In this document: positions 25,638 through 57,755 of the stretch, piece by piece
Layout: each line of letters starts with the position of its first letter
Position numbering within the stretch: position 1 is the first letter of the stretch
NCBI GenBank assembly: GCA_029261165.1
Contig: JAJDBV010000042.1
Span: 1 to 64,000 of the forward strand
DNA from: Nitrospirota bacterium
Lineage (GTDB): Bacteria; Nitrospirota; Nitrospiria; SBBL01; JAADHI01
DNA length: 64,000 nt
Direction of reading: 5' to 3'
The notes under the pieces: model-generated
What the model saw: only the letters and a program-made list of their open reading frames with translations
Database searches by the model: none
Told to the model about the DNA's origin: nothing
Translations under genes and position numbers: made by a program

Positions 25638-26888
25638 ATGAAGTTTGAAAAATATCATATCTCAGAAGAAATCAAAAAAAATCTGGAGCGTCTTGGCTTT
25701 AAGAGAACCACCGATATACAGTTTAAAGCCATTCCGTCGATTATGCAGGGAGAGGACGTGCTGGCCATCGCCCAGACAGGAACGGGAAAGACAGCGGCAT
25801 TTGCCATCCCTATTATTGATCGTATTCAAAAAGAGAAGCGAAGCAAGCGTTGGCTGGGCATCCAATGCATTGTCATGGTGCCAACGCATGAATTGGCCCA
25901 GCAGATCGGTGATGTTTTTAAAGGCATTGCCTTACAAACCAGGGTAAAAGCCTTCGCGCTTTATGGCGGAGTAGAACAGGCTCCGCAAATAAAAAAAATC
26001 ATGGATGGCATCGATATTCTGATTGCCACACCAGGGCGCTTGTTCGATCTGATCAGCCAGGGCTATATTCTTCTAAACAGTGTTAACACCCTGGTGCTTG
26101 ATGAAGCAGATCATATGCTCGACCTCGGTTTTATCAAGGATATTGAAGATATTAAAAGAAAGCTGACCCGAAAACACCAGACTCTTTTCTTTTCAGCAAC
26201 GATCAATAAAGAAATTAAAAAACTCGCGTATTCACAGGTGAAGGGGTCTGCTATCCGCATTCAGATTTCTCCGGAAAATCTCGTCTCAAAAAATGTGTCT
26301 CATTTTGTCATGTTTGTCGAGATGGACGACAAACGGTTTTTTCTGCAACGTTTCATCACAGATCATCCTGACGACAAGATTATTGTCTTTGTCAGAACAC
26401 GGGTCCGCGCCGAGAGAGTGAACAAGGCCATGGCAAGGGTCGAAATTAACACCGAAACGCTTCACGGCGAAAAAGACCAGGACGGCCGCTCTGAGGTCAT
26501 GCTTCACTTCAAGACAGGTAAATCAAAAATCCTCATTGCGACCGATATCAGCGCCCGCGGCATTGATATTCCAGATGTGAACTATGTCATCAACTACGAT
26601 CTTCCTGAAAAATCAGAGAATTATGTCCATCGTGTCGGACGCACCGGACGGGGCATGAACAAGGGCATCGCCATCTCCTTCTGCAGTCGAGACGAAAAAG
26701 TGCACCTTGAAGAAATCCAGGAATTTTTAGGGAAGGAAATTGAAGAAGTAAAGATCGGAAAAAAAGAATATACCCACGTCCTTGATCGCCCGAAGGCCGT
26801 CGACAACCTGAAAGAACTTATCGAAGACATTACGTATTGGGAAGAGAATAAGAAAAAGAAAAGGAAAAATAGAAAACCGAAGAAATAA
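25638..26888 (+). CDS. DEAD-box ATP-dependent RNA helicase
   Basis: 416 aa. All helicase motifs are visible: Q-motif GFKRTTDIQ, motif I AQTGTGKT, motif Ib TPGR, motif II DEAD, motif III SAT, and the C-terminal ARGIDIPDV and HRVGRTGR. The Lys-rich tail of about 30 residues resembles RhlE or CshA-type cold-shock helicases. It likely remodels ribosomal or messenger RNA in the cytoplasm. It is not clearly in an operon; an intergenic repeat element starts 8 bp after the stop. Confidence 0.95.
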   Translation: MKFEKYHISEEIKKNLERLGFKRTTDIQFKAIPSIMQGEDVLAIAQTGTGKTAAFAIPIIDRIQKEKRSKRWLGIQCIVMVPTHELAQQIGDVFKGIALQTRVKAFALYGGVEQAPQIKKIMDGIDILIATPGRLFDLISQGYILLNSVNTLVLDEADHMLDLGFIKDIEDIKRKLTRKHQTLFFSATINKEIKKLAYSQVKGSAIRIQISPENLVSKNVSHFVMFVEMDDKRFFLQRFITDHPDDKIIVFVRTRVRAERVNKAMARVEINTETLHGEKDQDGRSEVMLHFKTGKSKILIATDISARGIDIPDVNYVINYDLPEKSENYVHRVGRTGRGMNKGIAISFCSRDEKVHLEEIQEFLGKEIEEVKIGKKEYTHVLDRPKAVDNLKELIEDITYWEENKKKKRKNRKPKK

Positions 26889-26895
26889 AACCCTC

Positions 26896-27054
26896 GTAAC
26901 TATTCAGCATGACTGGATTTTTCTTAAGGGTAAGGCTCGAGGAGCGCAGAACCGCAAGGTATGTGTCTATACGTGAGGATTCGAGCACCACAGCAACGCA
27001 GCCCATGGAGGGATGGGTCTCGCGAAGCCAAAGATGGGTGTGCTGAGTTGTTAC
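26896..27054. repeat. Dispersed intergenic repeat with GTAAC/GTTAC ends, copy A
   Basis: 159 bp bounded by GTAACTATTCAG and CTGAGTTGTTAC, an imperfect terminal inverted repeat. The interior shares CGTGAGGATTCGAGCACCAC and GAGCGCAGAACC-like words with 57615-57755 in reverse orientation. It fills most of the space between the convergent helicase and pentahaem cytochrome genes. No reading frame; it looks like a MITE- or REP-like element. Confidence 0.8.
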
Positions 27055-27061
27055 AGTGAAA

Positions 27062-28555
27062 TTAGTCACCGAGTTTCAGTCGAACCTCAACCGACGCGAT
27101 CAAAGGCAGCCTTGCATCGTTATAGTCATCCAGACGGTCAAGATCATAGAAGAGCCTTGCATCGACTCTGTAATCCCCTGGTTGATCCCCCAGCTTTAAT
27201 CTGATTTTTTCGGTCACCTTGGCTCGAATGGCAGGATGAATATCTGCCTCCGGGGAAATTCCGGGATCGACAGTGTATATCGCCACGGGAGCCTCTTCGG
27301 TTGAGTCGGTTAGGACCTTTGCCTCCGGACCCACAATAGTGACATGAAGCAGGATCGCCCTTGGACCATAGCCGGTCGGGAGAGAATGGCCTGTACCGTC
27401 ATTCGTGATGCCAACATGGATCACCTGCGGGTCAGACGCATCTTGCTCGACCGACAAGGTCGCGGCCTTTCTCAACATTGAAACGGAATGTCCGCCTAAA
27501 AAAAGGTGTTTTCCGATGGCGCGCTTAGGCCGGTCGGGGAAAATCTCTGAAAGAAGCCGGACATCTTGCGGCATATGGCAATCCCGGCAGGTTCGGTCAT
27601 CCTGCGTGGCAAAATCCGTCTTCCATTCCAAAAAGGTTTGATGCTCAGGGGCCATTTCATCTGCCTGATGGCATACCGCGCAAATCTCAGCGGATCGCGC
27701 CGGGGTAAACAAGGGGTCCTGAACCGTGGGGTGCGGAGAAGAAACATCATATTTTCCATGAACATTCCCATCCCGGTCCAGATGACAACTCGCACAGGAG
27801 ACCCCATCCATCCGGTTCTTTTCACGCAGTTCGGGTCGTGCCGGGCGATCCCCACCCTGGAGAATCTGCGTGGGCGCATGACAGCGTCGGCAGGCATCCC
27901 GCTTATTTTCAGGCTGCCTGGCGATGGCCGCCACCGTAATCGGAGAGACATACGCAAGATGCACTGGAGAAGAATCCGGATAGAACTCATGGGACAAATC
28001 CTCCGGGAAATCGATCAATGATCCATCCGGGCCGGGCCACATGGAGGTATGAAAATCACTCCCCTCACCGCGCAGAAGCTCCATATAGATCTTTTTATGA
28101 CACGCGCTGCATATGATTGTCTTTGTCGCGTCCCCCTTCAGGAAAAGGGTCAGGGCTTTTTTCATCTGAATCGTAATCCGTGTTACAGCCTGGTTCCCTA
28201 TCCTGACAAAACCCGACGCGACAAAAGTTGAATGCCCATTGGCCTCGACGACCAGGTCATAAAGTCCCGGTGCAATGGAATCGAAACGAAAAGGCTCTCC
28301 TGCCGGGAGACGGATTTCATGTTTGACCTGTTCTGATTCTTTAATTTTAACTTTGTAGGTTTTTGCGTTCGCGCTGGGGTCCAGGAGAACAGACCCGATG
28401 AGCGTTCTTTCGGCATCGGCCACATTTGTCGAGACAACTTTTGAAACTGTTTCTTTTTGACCAGACGAAAGGGAGGGTCCTGGACTAACGACACCGACAG
28501 AGAGGATTGTCGAACAAAAGATAAGAGAATACTTTGAGAACATCTTATGACTCAA
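27062..28555 (-). CDS. Exported pentahaem c-type cytochrome
   Basis: 497 aa. A signal peptide covers about residues 5-30. A carboxypeptidase-regulatory-like beta domain (about 50-132) precedes five CxxCH haem sites: CSACH (149), CRRCH (222), CASCH (254), CAVCH (292) and CRDCH (323). The spacing and the C-terminal beta-rich region (about 370-497) resemble cytochrome c554/multihaem families. It should carry electrons in the periplasm or outer membrane. The TTG start overlaps the stop of the TPR lipoprotein gene (TTGA). An ATG at 28543 is a credible alternative. Cofactor content is read directly; the redox partner is unknown. Confidence 0.9.
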   Translation of the reverse strand: MSHKMFSKYSLIFCSTILSVGVVSPGPSLSSGQKETVSKVVSTNVADAERTLIGSVLLDPSANAKTYKVKIKESEQVKHEIRLPAGEPFRFDSIAPGLYDLVVEANGHSTFVASGFVRIGNQAVTRITIQMKKALTLFLKGDATKTIICSACHKKIYMELLRGEGSDFHTSMWPGPDGSLIDFPEDLSHEFYPDSSPVHLAYVSPITVAAIARQPENKRDACRRCHAPTQILQGGDRPARPELREKNRMDGVSCASCHLDRDGNVHGKYDVSSPHPTVQDPLFTPARSAEICAVCHQADEMAPEHQTFLEWKTDFATQDDRTCRDCHMPQDVRLLSEIFPDRPKRAIGKHLFLGGHSVSMLRKAATLSVEQDASDPQVIHVGITNDGTGHSLPTGYGPRAILLHVTIVGPEAKVLTDSTEEAPVAIYTVDPGISPEADIHPAIRAKVTEKIRLKLGDQPGDYRVDARLFYDLDRLDDYNDARLPLIASVEVRLKLGD

Positions 28556-30267
28556 GGGGTTTGGGACCTTACTTTCTTAAGGTTTGTTTCTACAGTTTTC
28601 GTGTTTGGATGATTTGGGCCCAATGCCGACTGAAATATTGTAAGCGCCTTTTGATAGGCCTCTGCCGCCTTTTTTAAGTTCCCGGACTTTCTCCACACCT
28701 CACCAAGGTTGTTGTAACTGATGGCAACATTGGGATGCTTTTCTCCAAAGATGGAGACAAAAATTTCCTGAACCCTCGTATAATACCGGATTGCCTGCTC
28801 CAAATCTCCCAAGGCATTCCACGCCGCCCCGAGATTGCTGTATGTGGCAATCACATTAGGGTGATTCTCTCCAAAAGCGCCTGAAATAATCTTCAGTGTT
28901 TTATCATAAAACTTGATCGCCTGCTTCATGTCTCCGAGCGCATACCAGGCCGCCCCCAGGGCATTATAACTGGAGGCCGTTTTAAGATGCCCTTCACCAA
29001 AGAGGGCTAAATTGACGGCAAGGGCCTTCTCATAATATCCCATCGCCCGTTTGAGGTCTCTGCGTTTTCTCCATGCGCCACCCAAGTCGTTGTATCGGAT
29101 CACAATCTCGGGACTATTTTCTCCATAAGCGACCAAATCAACCTCAAGCGCCTTTTCATAATATCTGATCACCTGCTCCATATCACCAACAGTGCTCCAG
29201 GCGAGGCCAAGCGTGTTGTATCGAATCGCAACCTTGGGGTGCTTCTCCCCGTAGACCGCCAAATCAACACCAAGGGCCTTCTCATAATATTCGACCGCCT
29301 TCTTGAGATTTCCGCGTTTTCTCCATGCGCCACCCAGGTTGTCGTATCGGGTGGCAATTGTAGGATGCTTTTCTCCAAAGACAGCCAAATCAGACTGAAG
29401 TGCCTTATTGTAGTACCCGAGTGCTTTATCCTTCTCTCCCAGTGCATTCCATGCCCGACCCAGATTGTCGTAACTGACTGCAATCTTTGCGTGTTCCTTT
29501 CCGAAAATGACTAAATCAACTTCCAGAGCTTTATCATAGTACCCCGCCGCCTTCTTCATGTCCCCGAGTCGGTCCCAGGCCAAACCCAGATGATGATAAC
29601 TCCTCGAAACATTGGCATGCGTCTCTCCAAACTCGGCCAAATCAATCTCCAAGGCCTTGTTGTAATATTCGACCGCCTTTGTTGAACCTCCCAAGAGGTC
29701 AGACACCAAGCCCAGTTGATACAGGGTGTCGCTATTTTCGGCTTCTAGTTCGACTGCCCGCAAGAAATAGTCGCGCGCTTCTTTATACTCCAACCTCAGT
29801 GCCTTGAGTGACCCCAAATCAAATGCATCTGCAGCGGCAGAAAACCTCGTTTCAGATAAGTTTTTTTCGTTTTTCTTTAGCGATGCACGTAAGTGTTTCT
29901 CCGCACCTTCGAGATCCCCTGCGACCAGATCTGCCCTTGCCTTTGCCGCGAGCTTATCCCCGGGAAGGCGCTTTTCAAGACGATCCGCCATCGCCCTGAC
30001 GCTCTCTGAAAGCTCTTGAAGCTTTTCATCGCGACGGCCAATAAAGACATCCTTTTCTTCGAGAATTTCAGACAATCGGAATCGGACTTCTTTTGAAATC
30101 TCATTTTCAGCAGATGCATCCCCACCTGCTGAAGCGCCAAGATGTGGACTGTCCGTGCGCGATAAAGGGGTACGACATCCTGCTAAAAGAAAGAATGCAA
30201 AGAAAACAACCCCATAAATAGTTGTAGGAGCAAATGTCGGGAACAGACCCCAATCTTTTTTAGACAC
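28552..30267 (-). CDS. TPR-repeat lipoprotein
   Basis: 571 aa. The N-terminus ends in the lipobox LLAGC (Cys31), so it is probably a lipoprotein. Residues about 50-165 are charged and helical. From about 185 to 562 nine consecutive 42-residue units follow the pattern YxxLGxAWxxxGxxxKAxxYYxKAL, ending in FGExHPxVA. These are kinesin-light-chain-type tetratricopeptide repeats that make a protein-binding superhelix. The GTG start at 30267 has AGGCAGGAT upstream. It overlaps the pentahaem cytochrome gene, suggesting a structural partner or assembly scaffold. A strong terminator separates it from the upstream monohaem cytochrome. Confidence 0.88.
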   Translation of the reverse strand: MSKKDWGLFPTFAPTTIYGVVFFAFFLLAGCRTPLSRTDSPHLGASAGGDASAENEISKEVRFRLSEILEEKDVFIGRRDEKLQELSESVRAMADRLEKRLPGDKLAAKARADLVAGDLEGAEKHLRASLKKNEKNLSETRFSAAADAFDLGSLKALRLEYKEARDYFLRAVELEAENSDTLYQLGLVSDLLGGSTKAVEYYNKALEIDLAEFGETHANVSRSYHHLGLAWDRLGDMKKAAGYYDKALEVDLVIFGKEHAKIAVSYDNLGRAWNALGEKDKALGYYNKALQSDLAVFGEKHPTIATRYDNLGGAWRKRGNLKKAVEYYEKALGVDLAVYGEKHPKVAIRYNTLGLAWSTVGDMEQVIRYYEKALEVDLVAYGENSPEIVIRYNDLGGAWRKRRDLKRAMGYYEKALAVNLALFGEGHLKTASSYNALGAAWYALGDMKQAIKFYDKTLKIISGAFGENHPNVIATYSNLGAAWNALGDLEQAIRYYTRVQEIFVSIFGEKHPNVAISYNNLGEVWRKSGNLKKAAEAYQKALTIFQSALGPNHPNTKTVETNLKKVRSQTP

Positions 30268-30322: not shown

Positions 30323-30353
30323 AAAAAGGGGAACCGGAACGGTTCCCCTTTTT
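30323..30353 (-). terminator. Rho-independent terminator after the monohaem cytochrome genes
   Basis: A perfect 14-bp stem (30323-30336 with 30340-30353) closes a 3-nt GAA loop. The stem has a GC core GGGGAACCG flanked by A5 and T5 tracts, so it can act in both directions. It lies 21 bp beyond the stop of the cytochrome gene at 30374. Confidence 0.93.
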
Positions 30354-30373: not shown

Positions 30374-30823
30374 TTATTTTTTCTTTCCCAGGCTTCTTTC
30401 ATACAAAAGGACGAGCCATGCCTCGTCTTCGGTGATTACGCTGCCCACCATCGGCATCATCGCTGTTCCGGGTATACCCTCCCGGATCACCCAAAACAGT
30501 TCTCCGTCTGTCCTCATTCCATGAAAGCCAGCGTTTGTGAAGTTCCGGGGAGAGGGATCCAGGCCAGGTGCGGCCAGACCATCTCCTCTTCCCTCTTTCC
30601 CGTGACAGGTAAAGCAGGTTGCCTTTGTCTGATAAAGGGCCTTCCCCTTCGCGATGTTCTCAGAAGTCGCGCGATAGGGATTCTTTAAGGCCTGGGCCTC
30701 CTTCAACCTCTCTCTCGGCACCCGTATCTTCGATAATTCAGACTCCGCTCCATAAGAAAGCGAAAACATCAAGACAACCGAGAGTCCACACAAAACACCT
30801 TTTAACACCTTCGGCACATCCAA
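30374..30823 (-). CDS. Exported monohaem cytochrome c
   Basis: 149 aa. A signal peptide ends near SLSYGA (residue 25). One haem site, CFTCH (Cys70, Cys73, His74), is followed by GKEGRGDG, as in class I cytochrome c. A Met in GTAMMPM is the probable distal ligand. The C-terminal helix ends in ERSLGKKK. The protein is a clear paralogue of the product encoded 24 bp upstream. The start is TTG at 30823; later GTG codons are possible. It probably carries electrons in the periplasm. Confidence 0.9.
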   Translation of the reverse strand: MDVPKVLKGVLCGLSVVLMFSLSYGAESELSKIRVPRERLKEAQALKNPYRATSENIAKGKALYQTKATCFTCHGKEGRGDGLAAPGLDPSPRNFTNAGFHGMRTDGELFWVIREGIPGTAMMPMVGSVITEDEAWLVLLYERSLGKKK

Positions 30824-30847: not shown

Positions 30848-31291
30848 TTACTTCAAAAGACTCATTTCAAAGAGGACGATCAGTGCAGCTTCTTCCTCTG
30901 AAACGATCCCCGGCGAATACGAAATCATCCCGGTTCCTTCAATACCGTTCTGGACAACCCACATGTATTCACCCGCCTGCCTATTCTTCATTAAGGGATT
31001 ATGGAAATCCCGTGGACCCGGATCAAGTGCCGCTCCCGCGATACCATCGCCTTTTCCCTCATTTCCGTGACAGGTAAAACAGGTCGCTTTACCCGTAAAG
31101 AGGGCTTTTCCCTTGGCAATATTCTCAGGGGTGGCGGGGAAAGGATTCTTCCACTCTCTGGCCTCTTCCATTTCATCGGCCGGAACACGGGCCTTGCCCA
31201 CGTCCGATTCCTTCCCCGGCTCAGACATGGCGACACTAACACTAAATAAAGTGGCAGTAAACAGGGCTAATGCTGTAATACCAAATTTCAT
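30848..31291 (-). CDS. Exported monohaem cytochrome c, paralogue of the neighbour
   Basis: 147 aa with a signal peptide ending around AMSEP (residue 23). CFTCH (Cys71, Cys74, His75) and GNEGKGDG mark one haem c. GTGMIS supplies a likely Met ligand. The region from VPADEMEEAREWKNPFPATPENIAKG onwards parallels the downstream paralogue almost residue for residue, so they arose by tandem duplication. The ATG has GGAGGTG at ideal spacing, and a strong promoter lies upstream (31424-31451). It is divergent from the NAD-domain kinase. Confidence 0.93.
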   Translation of the reverse strand: MKFGITALALFTATLFSVSVAMSEPGKESDVGKARVPADEMEEAREWKNPFPATPENIAKGKALFTGKATCFTCHGNEGKGDGIAGAALDPGPRDFHNPLMKNRQAGEYMWVVQNGIEGTGMISYSPGIVSEEEAALIVLFEMSLLK

Positions 31292-31641: not shown

Positions 31642-31743
31642 ATGAAACATTCGATGCTATTCTTAACCGGCCTTGCTGTCGGCACCGCAGCGGGTCCGGC
31701 GTTCGGACCAAGACCGGAAATGCGGATTGAGAGGCCGTCATGA
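31642..31743 (+). CDS. Putative small hydrophobic peptide upstream of the kinase
   Basis: 33 aa from the ATG at 31642, or 47 aa from an in-frame ATG at 31600. It reads as a short charged start, one hydrophobic stretch (MLFLTGLAVGTAAG) and a basic, Pro-rich tail ending ERPS. It would make a single membrane helix or an exported peptide. An AAGAAGATC purine tract precedes the later ATG. Its stop is 13 bp before the kinase ATG, so it could be a cotranslated small membrane partner. I do not recognise a family, and it may not be translated. Confidence 0.4.
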   Translation: MKHSMLFLTGLAVGTAAGPAFGPRPEMRIERPS

Positions 31744-31756
31744 TGTTGGAAAGTCC

Positions 31757-32791
31757 ATGTTGACAAAGGTGGCCATAATCGGTGCCGGTAAAGGAGGCCT
31801 GTCTCTCATAGAAATTCTTTATGACGATCCGCTGGTTCAGATTGTCGGCGTTGCCGACGTGGACAAGCATGCACCCGGAATCAGGCTCGCCAAAAAGTTA
31901 AAGATCCCTGTCACCCAGAATTATAAAAAATTACTCCAGTCCAAAAAAGCCGATCTGGTTATTGATGTCAGTGGGAATCAGTCGGTGGAAGAAACCCTTC
32001 ATGTGGCCATGCCTCCCGGGACAGCAATCATTGGAGGCCCTTCGGCAAAATTTATGTGGCAATTAATCGAAGAGCGAATAAAGAGCAAGGAGAGGATAGA
32101 ACAACATCTCCTGGAATATCAATCGCTCTATCGTCTCTACGTAAAAGAAGTCGAATTGGCCATCGCCGAAGAACGAACCCGGATTGCCTGCGACATTCAC
32201 GACGGCCTGGTGCAGACTCTGGTTGGACTCAGTTATCGACTTGATTACTGCTCCGATCAGATGGAGAAAAACCGCGCACGATCCATCGCATCTCTCCACG
32301 AGACAAAAAAACTGTTAAAGGAAGGGATCTCGGAGGCACGGGAAGTGATATTTAATCTACGCCCGATTTTGATTGACCAATCAGGTCTCTCCCGTTCTTT
32401 GGAAAATTATCTCAAAACCTATCACCGGCAATATCAGATTAAGACCACCTTGAAGACGGCGGTCAATGAGCGACTAATCGCATCCCAAACAAAAATCTTT
32501 GTTTTCCGAATCATCCAGGAAGCCCTGGCAAATGTGCAAAAACATGCGCGTGCCAAACGGGTCGACGTCAAGGTCAGCATTAAAAATGAAACGATGCATG
32601 TTTCCATCATCGATAATGGCGTCGGGTTTGATCAAGAGAAGGTAAAACGGGATCAGAATGGACAACGCTCATTCGGCCTTCAAGCCATTACCGAGCGGGC
32701 CCGTTTGCTGGGCGGACAGGCAAAAATAACAACACGACTGGGAAAGGGGACGCGTGTTGCTATTCAGATCCCGATAGGAAGCTCTGACTAA
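31757..32791 (+). CDS. NarL-type histidine kinase with N-terminal Rossmann NAD(P)-binding sensor
   Basis: 344 aa, no membrane segment. Residues 1-100 form a dinucleotide-binding domain: VAIIGAGKGG (Gly9, Gly11, Gly14), an acidic end of strand two (ADVD, 33-36) and ADLVIDVSGN (66-74) as in homoserine or acetaldehyde dehydrogenases. A coiled linker follows (102-140). The HisKA_3 box holds the phospho-acceptor His148 in RIACDIHDG. HATPase_c has the N-box QEALANVQKHA (Asn259) and DNGVGF. The ATG at 31757 is chosen because the Rossmann strand starts there. The NarL-type regulator downstream is the likely partner. The layout predicts sensing of NAD(H)/NADP(H) or a metabolite; the ligand is inference. 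Confidence 0.9.
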   Translation: MLTKVAIIGAGKGGLSLIEILYDDPLVQIVGVADVDKHAPGIRLAKKLKIPVTQNYKKLLQSKKADLVIDVSGNQSVEETLHVAMPPGTAIIGGPSAKFMWQLIEERIKSKERIEQHLLEYQSLYRLYVKEVELAIAEERTRIACDIHDGLVQTLVGLSYRLDYCSDQMEKNRARSIASLHETKKLLKEGISEAREVIFNLRPILIDQSGLSRSLENYLKTYHRQYQIKTTLKTAVNERLIASQTKIFVFRIIQEALANVQKHARAKRVDVKVSIKNETMHVSIIDNGVGFDQEKVKRDQNGQRSFGLQAITERARLLGGQAKITTRLGKGTRVAIQIPIGSSD

Positions 32792-33707: not shown

Positions 33708-34025
33708 CTAGGACACCGGGTTCCTTTTGGCAAGATGGACGACAACCTCCTTCGCAACAAGTTGATCTTTGTGGGTCGTAAACGTCACAATCACGGTATC
33801 ATCCGTGTTGACTTTCCTAAGCAGTTCACCCGAGCTCAAAAAACGAATCGGTTTCTGGCTTTCCGCATCGATAATCACCAGAAGCCCGTTGACCTGATCG
33901 CTTTTTGTGACGACACCCACATGCTTTCCCGGCCCCATATTCAAACAAGCCCAGGCAATTGGCGCCGCCGCCAATAAACCGAAAACGAAGACAAACGTCC
34001 AAACCATTGATCTCATTTTTAACAT
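33708..34025 (-). CDS. Small exported protein, unknown function
   Basis: 105 aa. A Sec-type signal peptide runs to about residue 26 (AAPIAWA), followed directly by Cys, although the lipobox is not canonical. The mature part (about 80 aa) is beta-rich and reads like a small OB- or SH3-type barrel. I recognise no family. The ATG has GGGAGGGAAG upstream. It lies downstream of the response regulator but on the opposite strand, so the two are convergent. Confidence 0.65.
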   Translation of the reverse strand: MLKMRSMVWTFVFVFGLLAAAPIAWACLNMGPGKHVGVVTKSDQVNGLLVIIDAESQKPIRFLSSGELLRKVNTDDTVIVTFTTHKDQLVAKEVVVHLAKRNPVS

Positions 34026-57615: not shown

Positions 57616-57755
57616 TAACGATTCAGCCCACCCATCTAAGGCTCCATGGCGGCGTTACTGTGGTGCTCGAATCCTCACGTATAAACCATACGCTCCGGGT
57701 TCTGCGCGCCTCGTGCCTTGCCCTGAAGCCTTATCTAGGCAATCTGAACCGTTAC
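57615..57755. repeat. Dispersed intergenic repeat with GTAAC/GTTAC ends, copy B
   Basis: 141 bp, ends GTAACGATTCAG and CTGAACCGTTAC, in reverse orientation to copy A (26896-27054). The two share a run of about 26 identical bases around GGATTCGAGCACCAC and several flanking words. It separates the adaptor and pump genes by 170 bp without interrupting either. Confidence 0.8.

Follow-up and report, generated by a model that had tools for sequence, protein, structure and literature searches.

Organisation of the locus

The 64,000-nucleotide window analysed here, from a Nitrospirota bacterium (assembly GCA_029261165.1, contig JAJDBV010000042.1, positions 1 to 64,000), belongs to an apparently metagenome-assembled genome of 2.9 Mb in 89 contigs, and carries on its minus strand a gene for a predicted lipoprotein built of tetratricopeptide repeats (TPR) followed immediately by a gene for a pentahaem cytochrome (Table 1). 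A first-pass annotation of the window had already placed both open reading frames (ORFs) correctly, and nine 42-residue units, a lipobox and five CXXCH motifs are all present. In minus-strand order the locus begins with two monohaem cytochrome genes, continues with a palindromic hairpin and ends with the TPR and pentahaem genes, the last of which faces a convergent DEAD-box helicase gene; a histidine kinase gene lies beyond the monohaem cytochromes. None of 200 shuffled sequences is as stable as the hairpin on either strand (z -6.3 and -6.0).

The two genes had been said to share overlapping codons and so to be made in a fixed ratio. When the cytochrome is started at the TTG codon at 28555 there is indeed a 4-base overlap (TTGA), but an in-frame ATG at 28543, 12 bases past the TTG, removes it and leaves an 8-base gap, and by eye we saw a convincing ribosome-binding site before neither start. 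The overlap is thus one of two start choices, and since it would imply coupling of translation rather than stoichiometry, the fixed ratio does not follow. Joint expression is nevertheless likely, because the genes share a strand, are separated by at most 8 bases and have a terminator-like hairpin upstream; they probably form one transcript that the hairpin separates from the upstream cytochromes.

Composition gives no indication of horizontal gain (GC content 0.49-0.53 near the pair against 0.44-0.56 across the window). A false assembly join is unlikely, since the other TPR matches in the source genome are weak (of ten matches to TPR_10, six fall within this gene and four elsewhere) and the copies of the repeat downstream of the pair are at most 94% identical to it (matches longer than 30 bases). 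As a caveat on assembly, several TPR matches in relatives lie at or close to contig ends.

Table 1. Coordinates of the features discussed, as window positions unless a locus is named
Feature	Position	Strand	Details
TPR lipoprotein gene	28552-30267	minus	571 residues; GTG start
Pentahaem cytochrome gene	27062-28555	minus	497 residues from TTG; 493 residues from ATG at 28543
Two extra TPR-like hairpins preceding the nine units	29746-29955	minus	residues 105-174 (about 105-134 and 137-174)
Nine TPR_10/TPR_12-type units	28603-29736	minus	residues 178-555; consecutive, exactly 42 residues each
N-terminal immunoglobulin (Ig)-like domain of cytochrome	28163-28441	minus	residues 39-131; weak CarboxypepD_reg match, 15.9 bits against cut-off 32.3
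Five CXXCH haem sites	27575-28111	minus	Cys149, 222, 254, 292, 323
C-terminal Ig-like domain of cytochrome	27071-27478	minus	residues 360-495; with G-x-G-H-x-x-P-T-G motif
Terminator-like palindromic hairpin	30323-30353		14-bp stem, 3-nt loop; between upstream monohaem cytochromes and TPR gene
Monohaem cytochrome genes	30374-30823; 30848-31291	minus	in tandem
Dispersed repeat	26896-27054		159 bp; imperfect terminal inverted repeats (GTAAC..TTCAGCA); convergent gap downstream of cytochrome
DEAD-box helicase gene	25638-26888		convergent with pentahaem cytochrome gene
Histidine kinase gene	31673-32791	plus	nitrate-sensor type
Probably exported protein	33708-34025	minus	105 residues
HEAT-repeat genes of sister genus	L043:3784-5187; L044:2994-4457; L045:9723-11222; L046:8893-10296; L047:6469-7860		head-to-head with cytochrome orthologue
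HEAT orthologue of window genome	L070:9788-11212		49-53% identity; on another contig

The TPR lipoprotein and its repeat array

The TPR protein is a predicted lipoprotein by its signal sequence and lipobox, LAGC at residues 28-31 with Cys31 followed by Arg at position +2, all read directly from the sequence rather than with a signal predictor. Pfam matches are strong for both TPR_12 (E 2.1e-84, 278.2 bits against a cut-off of 30.1) and TPR_10 (E 1.3e-55, 184.4 bits against 27.5). In the AlphaFold2 model, which has a mean predicted local distance difference test score (pLDDT) of 85.5, each 42-residue unit forms a two-helix hairpin and the helical part runs from residue 59 to 569, giving eleven hairpins in total and one closing helix. 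The structures in the PDB that match this model are TPR superhelices, namely SPINDLY, OGT, LGN and KLC1.

The near-uniform units had been taken as a sign of recent expansion, a reading that their divergence does not support. Across the 36 pairs of units, protein identity is 33-64% (mean 44%) and DNA identity 45-75% (mean 56%), and Tandem Repeats Finder reports only three copies, 65% matching, at 29019-29392. At sites where two units have the same residue, adjacent units share the codon at 63 of 155 (0.41) and all pairs at 292 of 632 (0.46), compared to 0.37 expected from the codon usage of the window, whereas recently duplicated units would be nearly identical; adding a tenth frame at residue 136 leaves this picture unchanged. 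The excess is modest and peaks at unit separations of 3 and 5 (0.55 and 0.59). The most similar units, those at 304 and 388, share 17 of 26 same-residue codons, possibly the trace of a duplication or conversion over 84 residues at a later date. The uniform length is accounted for by 42 residues being native to this type of TPR, not by a young array.

The pentahaem cytochrome

The cytochrome has an export signal but no lipobox, and contains five CXXCH and no CXXCK motifs between two Ig-like domains. We aligned it with the other five sequences of its family and with 20 of 24 loci from its class, giving 26 rows; one class locus (L012) was left out as cut by a contig end and three (L016, L019 and L027) because overlapping ORFs displaced them during gene picking. 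The N-terminal Ig-like domain is found in all six family sequences and in none of the 20 class homologues. All five CXXCH motifs are invariant in the 26 sequences, as are four histidines outside them, at 275, 350, 356 and 390, and a fifth, His199, when a shift of one column is allowed; no other non-motif histidine is conserved throughout. Exactly five such histidines are kept across the wider family, which makes bis-histidine ligation of every haem probable, and five haems with five distal ligands suggest that the protein is probably an electron carrier rather than a catalyst. The earlier suggestion of extracytoplasmic electron transfer is supported for the cytochrome itself, given its export signal, its five haems and a pentahaem c552 as its closest solved relative.

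That relative is the penta-haem cytochrome c552 of Thermochromatium tepidum (PDB ID: 5ze8), which a profile of the 26 sequences finds with E 2.2e-16, followed by the selenoprotein MccSep (9wt8; E 2e-8); the strength of the first match depends on the class homologues being added to the profile. The predicted structure of the cytochrome, with a mean pLDDT of 59, is good only for its Ig-like domains (residues 39-131 and 360-495). Foldseek also returns 5ze8 as the best match to it (E 4.3e-7), and VIA-align superposes residues 331-493 on 5ze8 with Z 12.6 over 144 residues (root mean square deviation 5.1; next row 9.5), the other rows being mostly generic beta-sandwich domains such as galactosidases and transglutaminases, which are uninformative on function. 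These profile and fold matches place the cytochrome, as a divergent member with an additional Ig-like domain at its N-terminus, in the pentahaem (PHC) family to which T. tepidum c552 and ExtKL of Geobacter belong.

Distribution and gene neighbourhood in relatives

Matches to the cytochrome at E 1e-3 or better occur in 41 of 58 genomes searched: its own, five of a sister genus, where they are nearly full length and 58-64% identical, and 35 of the class, where they span the later part of the haem core and run into the beginning of the C-terminal domain. At that threshold there is no match in two other genomes of the family, in any of ten from other families of the same order, or in five from the class. 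The family comprises eight genomes in three genera, and the window's own genus is represented by one. Two patterns drawn from the N-terminal domain, run against contigs of 84,980 species, returned the same five sister-genus genomes, all Nitrospirota metagenome-assembled genomes, two of which bear the labels 'Candidatus Manganitrophaceae bacterium' and 'Nitrospira sp.'; a sample of 295 genomes from the phylum gave three at E 1e-30, its own included, all of the same family. As both sets of matches are confined to the family, the doubly Ig-flanked cytochrome looks like a family-level variant.

The company it keeps in relatives is different. A tblastn search with the window TPR lipoprotein found no match at E 1e-3 in 39 cytochrome loci, which together represent the five orthologues and 23 class homologues, the latter drawn from loci of 24 class genomes out of the 35 that matched and covered for about 1.0-1.5 kb upstream (in five places also about 8-9 kb); one of the 23 (L020) is covered for only 2 bases upstream, and L012 was excluded as holding no ORF with at least four CXXCH motifs. 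A conserved TPR-cytochrome operon is rejected on these neighbourhoods, which sample relatives outside the window's own genus, and the pairing looks like a local, one-genome observation rather than a conserved machine.

Upstream of all five orthologues lies instead a gene that points the other way and encodes a HEAT-repeat protein, homologous in all five genomes (56-71% identical among themselves), with the repeats confirmed by Pfam for the copy in G002. All five HEAT proteins appear lipoprotein-like by eye, with a hydrophobic stretch ending at a cysteine; a strict lipobox pattern applied to the first 60 residues matched none of them. The window genome carries an orthologue of this protein on another contig (Table 1), and among the ORFs picked in the surrounding 19.5 kb there is no CXXCH protein. 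Downstream, three of the five orthologues are followed on the same strand by a small protein whose three copies are 63-76% identical, the one in G002 being matched by Pfam TPR models; the other two run into a contig end after 186 bases (G005) and into a different gene (G006).

Genes related to the window TPR gene are scattered in the family. They encode an exported protein in G005 and, in G007, a fragment at the edge of a contig, both beside genes for a flavin oxidoreductase and an aromatic amino-acid lyase (loci L052:4626-8919 and L054:1-3635, respectively); the flavin oxidoreductase is Pfam-based for L052 only, and the lyase ORF there spans only the first half of its profile. A lipoprotein-like relative is found in G006 and relatives with no evident signal in G002 and G004, among others, all signals being judged by eye. 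A HEAT gene beside the orthologues and a TPR gene here hint that solenoid genes next to the cytochrome have been exchanged, though this may be coincidence; the locus is ordinary overall, and this possible swap, mildly interesting, is the only feature beyond that.

Possible roles of the pair

We read the two genes, with a probability of about 0.45, as an envelope transcription unit in which the TPR lipoprotein would dock the cytochrome or one of its partners close to the outer membrane. The lipoprotein, having no Asp at position +2, would be sorted to the outer membrane and face the periplasm; the cytochrome would carry electrons in the periplasm, each of its five haems being bis-His; and the docking site would be the TPR groove, so placed that electrons might arrive from a donor outside the cell. 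Possible periplasmic partners are the two cyt579-like monohaem cytochromes encoded upstream, which among NCBIfam models match cytochrome 579 best (128.6 and 100.6 bits against a cut-off of 280). The TPR gene would have come beside the cytochrome in the window's lineage only, so that a docking role, if real, would be local and replaceable.

Several points weigh against this reading. The TPR gene lies beside the cytochrome in none of the five orthologous loci and none of the 23 class homologues, which leaves the first-pass proposal of the pair as a module unsupported, absence of linkage in other genomes having been its own stated refutation. Docking itself, plausible as it is, is a guess, and the sorting step is a prediction from a general rule on Asp at position +2. 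The match to 5ze8 is weak when sought with the window protein by itself (E 0.27) or with a profile of the six family sequences (E 0.014), the model of the haem core is unreliable (pLDDT below 50 almost throughout residues 135-339), and His108, His404 and His440 are kept in all six family members only, where the ligands could therefore differ. As for the transcript, the hairpin is unlisted in a promoter and terminator pattern scan, consensus promoter-like sites are at chance level (4 compared to 5.0 in shuffles), and the consensus scan places none directly upstream of the TPR gene and one within it (29186-29158).

Alternatively, the TPR lipoprotein would be an envelope scaffold with a job of its own, brought next to the cytochrome by a local rearrangement and simply transcribed along with it, the two proteins being chance neighbours. 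We regard this as somewhat doubtful while still a serious competitor: the pair is unlinked in relatives, the TPR relatives of the family sit in unrelated places, two of them beside the lyase and oxidoreductase genes, and in all seven relatives the histidine kinase has another gene next to it on the side of the pair. The shared strand, short gap and upstream hairpin point the other way by making joint expression likely, and we rank docking a little above it, since a binding scaffold that is exported and probably shares a transcript with the cytochrome is suggestive. A broader version of docking, in which this branch of pentahaem cytochromes would need an exchangeable alpha-solenoid lipoprotein at the outer membrane, HEAT being replaced next door by TPR while the HEAT gene survives elsewhere, seems to us improbable.

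It is also unlikely that the TPR lipoprotein is a dedicated apocytochrome chaperone, an analogue of NrfG or CcmI that would hold the unfolded pentahaem protein for haem attachment. TPR proteins of these two kinds bind the C-termini of apocytochromes in System I (PMC12285233, PMC3884852), and the source genome, with a match to CcmF_C and none to ResB, probably uses System I. Membership of the NrfG/CcmI family is rejected, however, on a TPR_CcmH_CycH score of 22.6 bits against a cut-off of 42; the protein has a lipid anchor instead of inner-membrane helices, the five CXXCH sites are ordinary and call for no special lyase, and the orthologous cytochromes have no such TPR gene next door. We give very little credence to a cytochrome that polymerises into a periplasmic or extracellular wire anchored by the TPR lipoprotein, an idea that draws on the proposal (PMC11976967) that pentahaem cytochromes of cable bacteria and T. 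tepidum c552 are structurally related to the archaeal nanowire protein AvECN. Five conserved distal histidines suffice for five haems, so that a ligand from a neighbouring subunit, as in OmcS and OmcE (PMC12954529), is unneeded, though OmcZ wires likewise do without one according to the same source. The cytochrome also has Ig-like domains at both ends.

Flanking genes and a dispersed repeat

The 159-bp repeat in the gap downstream of the cytochrome has at least 44 BLAST matches in the source genome, a count based on 40 of 117 candidates; the seven other genomes of the family have 0-4 matches apiece and the other 23 genomes searched have none, and a diverged match also lies within the window at 57649-57668. 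It looks like a miniature inverted-repeat transposable element expanded in this lineage, going by its ends. A structured RNA at 26905-27055 was considered and rejected, since the fold is no better than that of shuffles (z -0.67, plus strand) and there is no Rfam match at the gathering threshold.

On the other side, the histidine kinase has an N-terminal NAD-binding-like stretch (a weak aspartate-dehydrogenase match of 23.7 bits) and adjoins a response regulator. The kinase is found in all eight family genomes, with the regulator adjacent in all seven relatives. The small protein encoded beyond them has no Pfam match, and a homologue lies near the same kinase and regulator in four of the seven relatives. 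Insertion of the TPR-cytochrome pair as a unit into a syntenic locus was discarded, as the other flank of the kinase varies and no empty site can be defined.

Comparison with known systems

PilW and Tgl are exported, lipid-anchored TPR proteins and resemble the window protein in both respects. Their repeats are 34 residues long, compared to 42 here, and the window protein scores far below their models (57.7 against 154 bits for PilW and 50.7 against 225 bits for Tgl). The exported TPR protein of G005 (L052:6685-8919), which like the window protein belongs to the TPR_10/TPR_12 (kinesin-light-chain-type) repeat proteins, has 42-residue units, a similar N-terminal module and 37% identity, but the lipobox is in the window protein only, and the G005 gene lies beside the lyase and oxidoreductase genes rather than a cytochrome. 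No paper describing a TPR lipoprotein paired with a pentahaem cytochrome was found in open-access searches, judged by titles and the opening lines of abstracts together with passages of two papers.

Among cytochromes, the nitrite reductase NrfA is set aside for the window protein, which has CXXCH only and no CXXCK and reaches 20 against 595 bits for NF008339; the score carries the weight here, as some NrfA lineages use CXXCH. OmcA/MtrC is likewise rejected, there being five haems rather than ten and 16 against 209.3 bits for TIGR03507; a Pfam match to MtrC/MtrF domain II/IV does exceed its cut-off (34.2 against 30 bits, residues 252-331), mainly over the CXXCH stretches. The membrane-anchored pentahaem cytochromes of the class, about 420-450 residues long, have the same haem core and GxGHxxPTG domain at 23-28% identity over the alignment, but in them an N-terminal hydrophobic anchor, seen by eye, replaces the signal and Ig-like domain, and the stretch between haems 1 and 2 is shorter.

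The window protein shares with 5ze8 five c-haems (by the title of that structure), a distal S-x-H histidine at the first haem, GGH and H-x-x-P-T-G motifs and a C-terminal Ig-like domain, and differs from it in the extra N-terminal Ig-like domain and in an identity of 22% over the 144 aligned residues. Haem packing and axial ligation as in 5ze8 would be compatible with the five conserved distal histidines. A pentahaem domain joined to an Ig-like domain, together with a profile match, also links it to ExtKL, MccSep and the sPHC of cable bacteria. All 26 aligned members match the ExtKL model NF040886 at E up to 10, the best at 5.9e-21; ExtKL proper is rejected for the window cytochrome, which reaches 14.2 of the 250 bits required (E 0.012) and has Tyr at the selenocysteine site. 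This residue, beside PTG, is His in the five orthologues and Asp in the 20 class homologues, and is non-standard in MccSep (the structure label reads U325A), which as aligned also lacks equivalents of His275 and His356; no paper on MccSep turned up in the open-access literature. ExtKL lies in a gene cluster with the outer-membrane porin gene extI; the neighbour proteins scanned here, a subset of the window ORFs, include no porin.

ExtKL, Gsu2801 and the cable-bacteria cytochromes have been united in one pentahaem family structurally homologous to T. tepidum c552, the small and large forms being placed among cytochromes with at least one five-coordinate haem (PMC11976967), a feature in which the branch of the window cytochrome may differ. 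To the c552/ExtKL family the Ig-five haems-Ig variant adds a doubly Ig-flanked form, and it occurs in relatives of manganese-oxidising Nitrospirota, in which the electron route is partly hypothetical (PMC9040806). If a solenoid lipoprotein does hold such a cytochrome, it would amount to a tether without haem that keeps electron carriers at the outer membrane.

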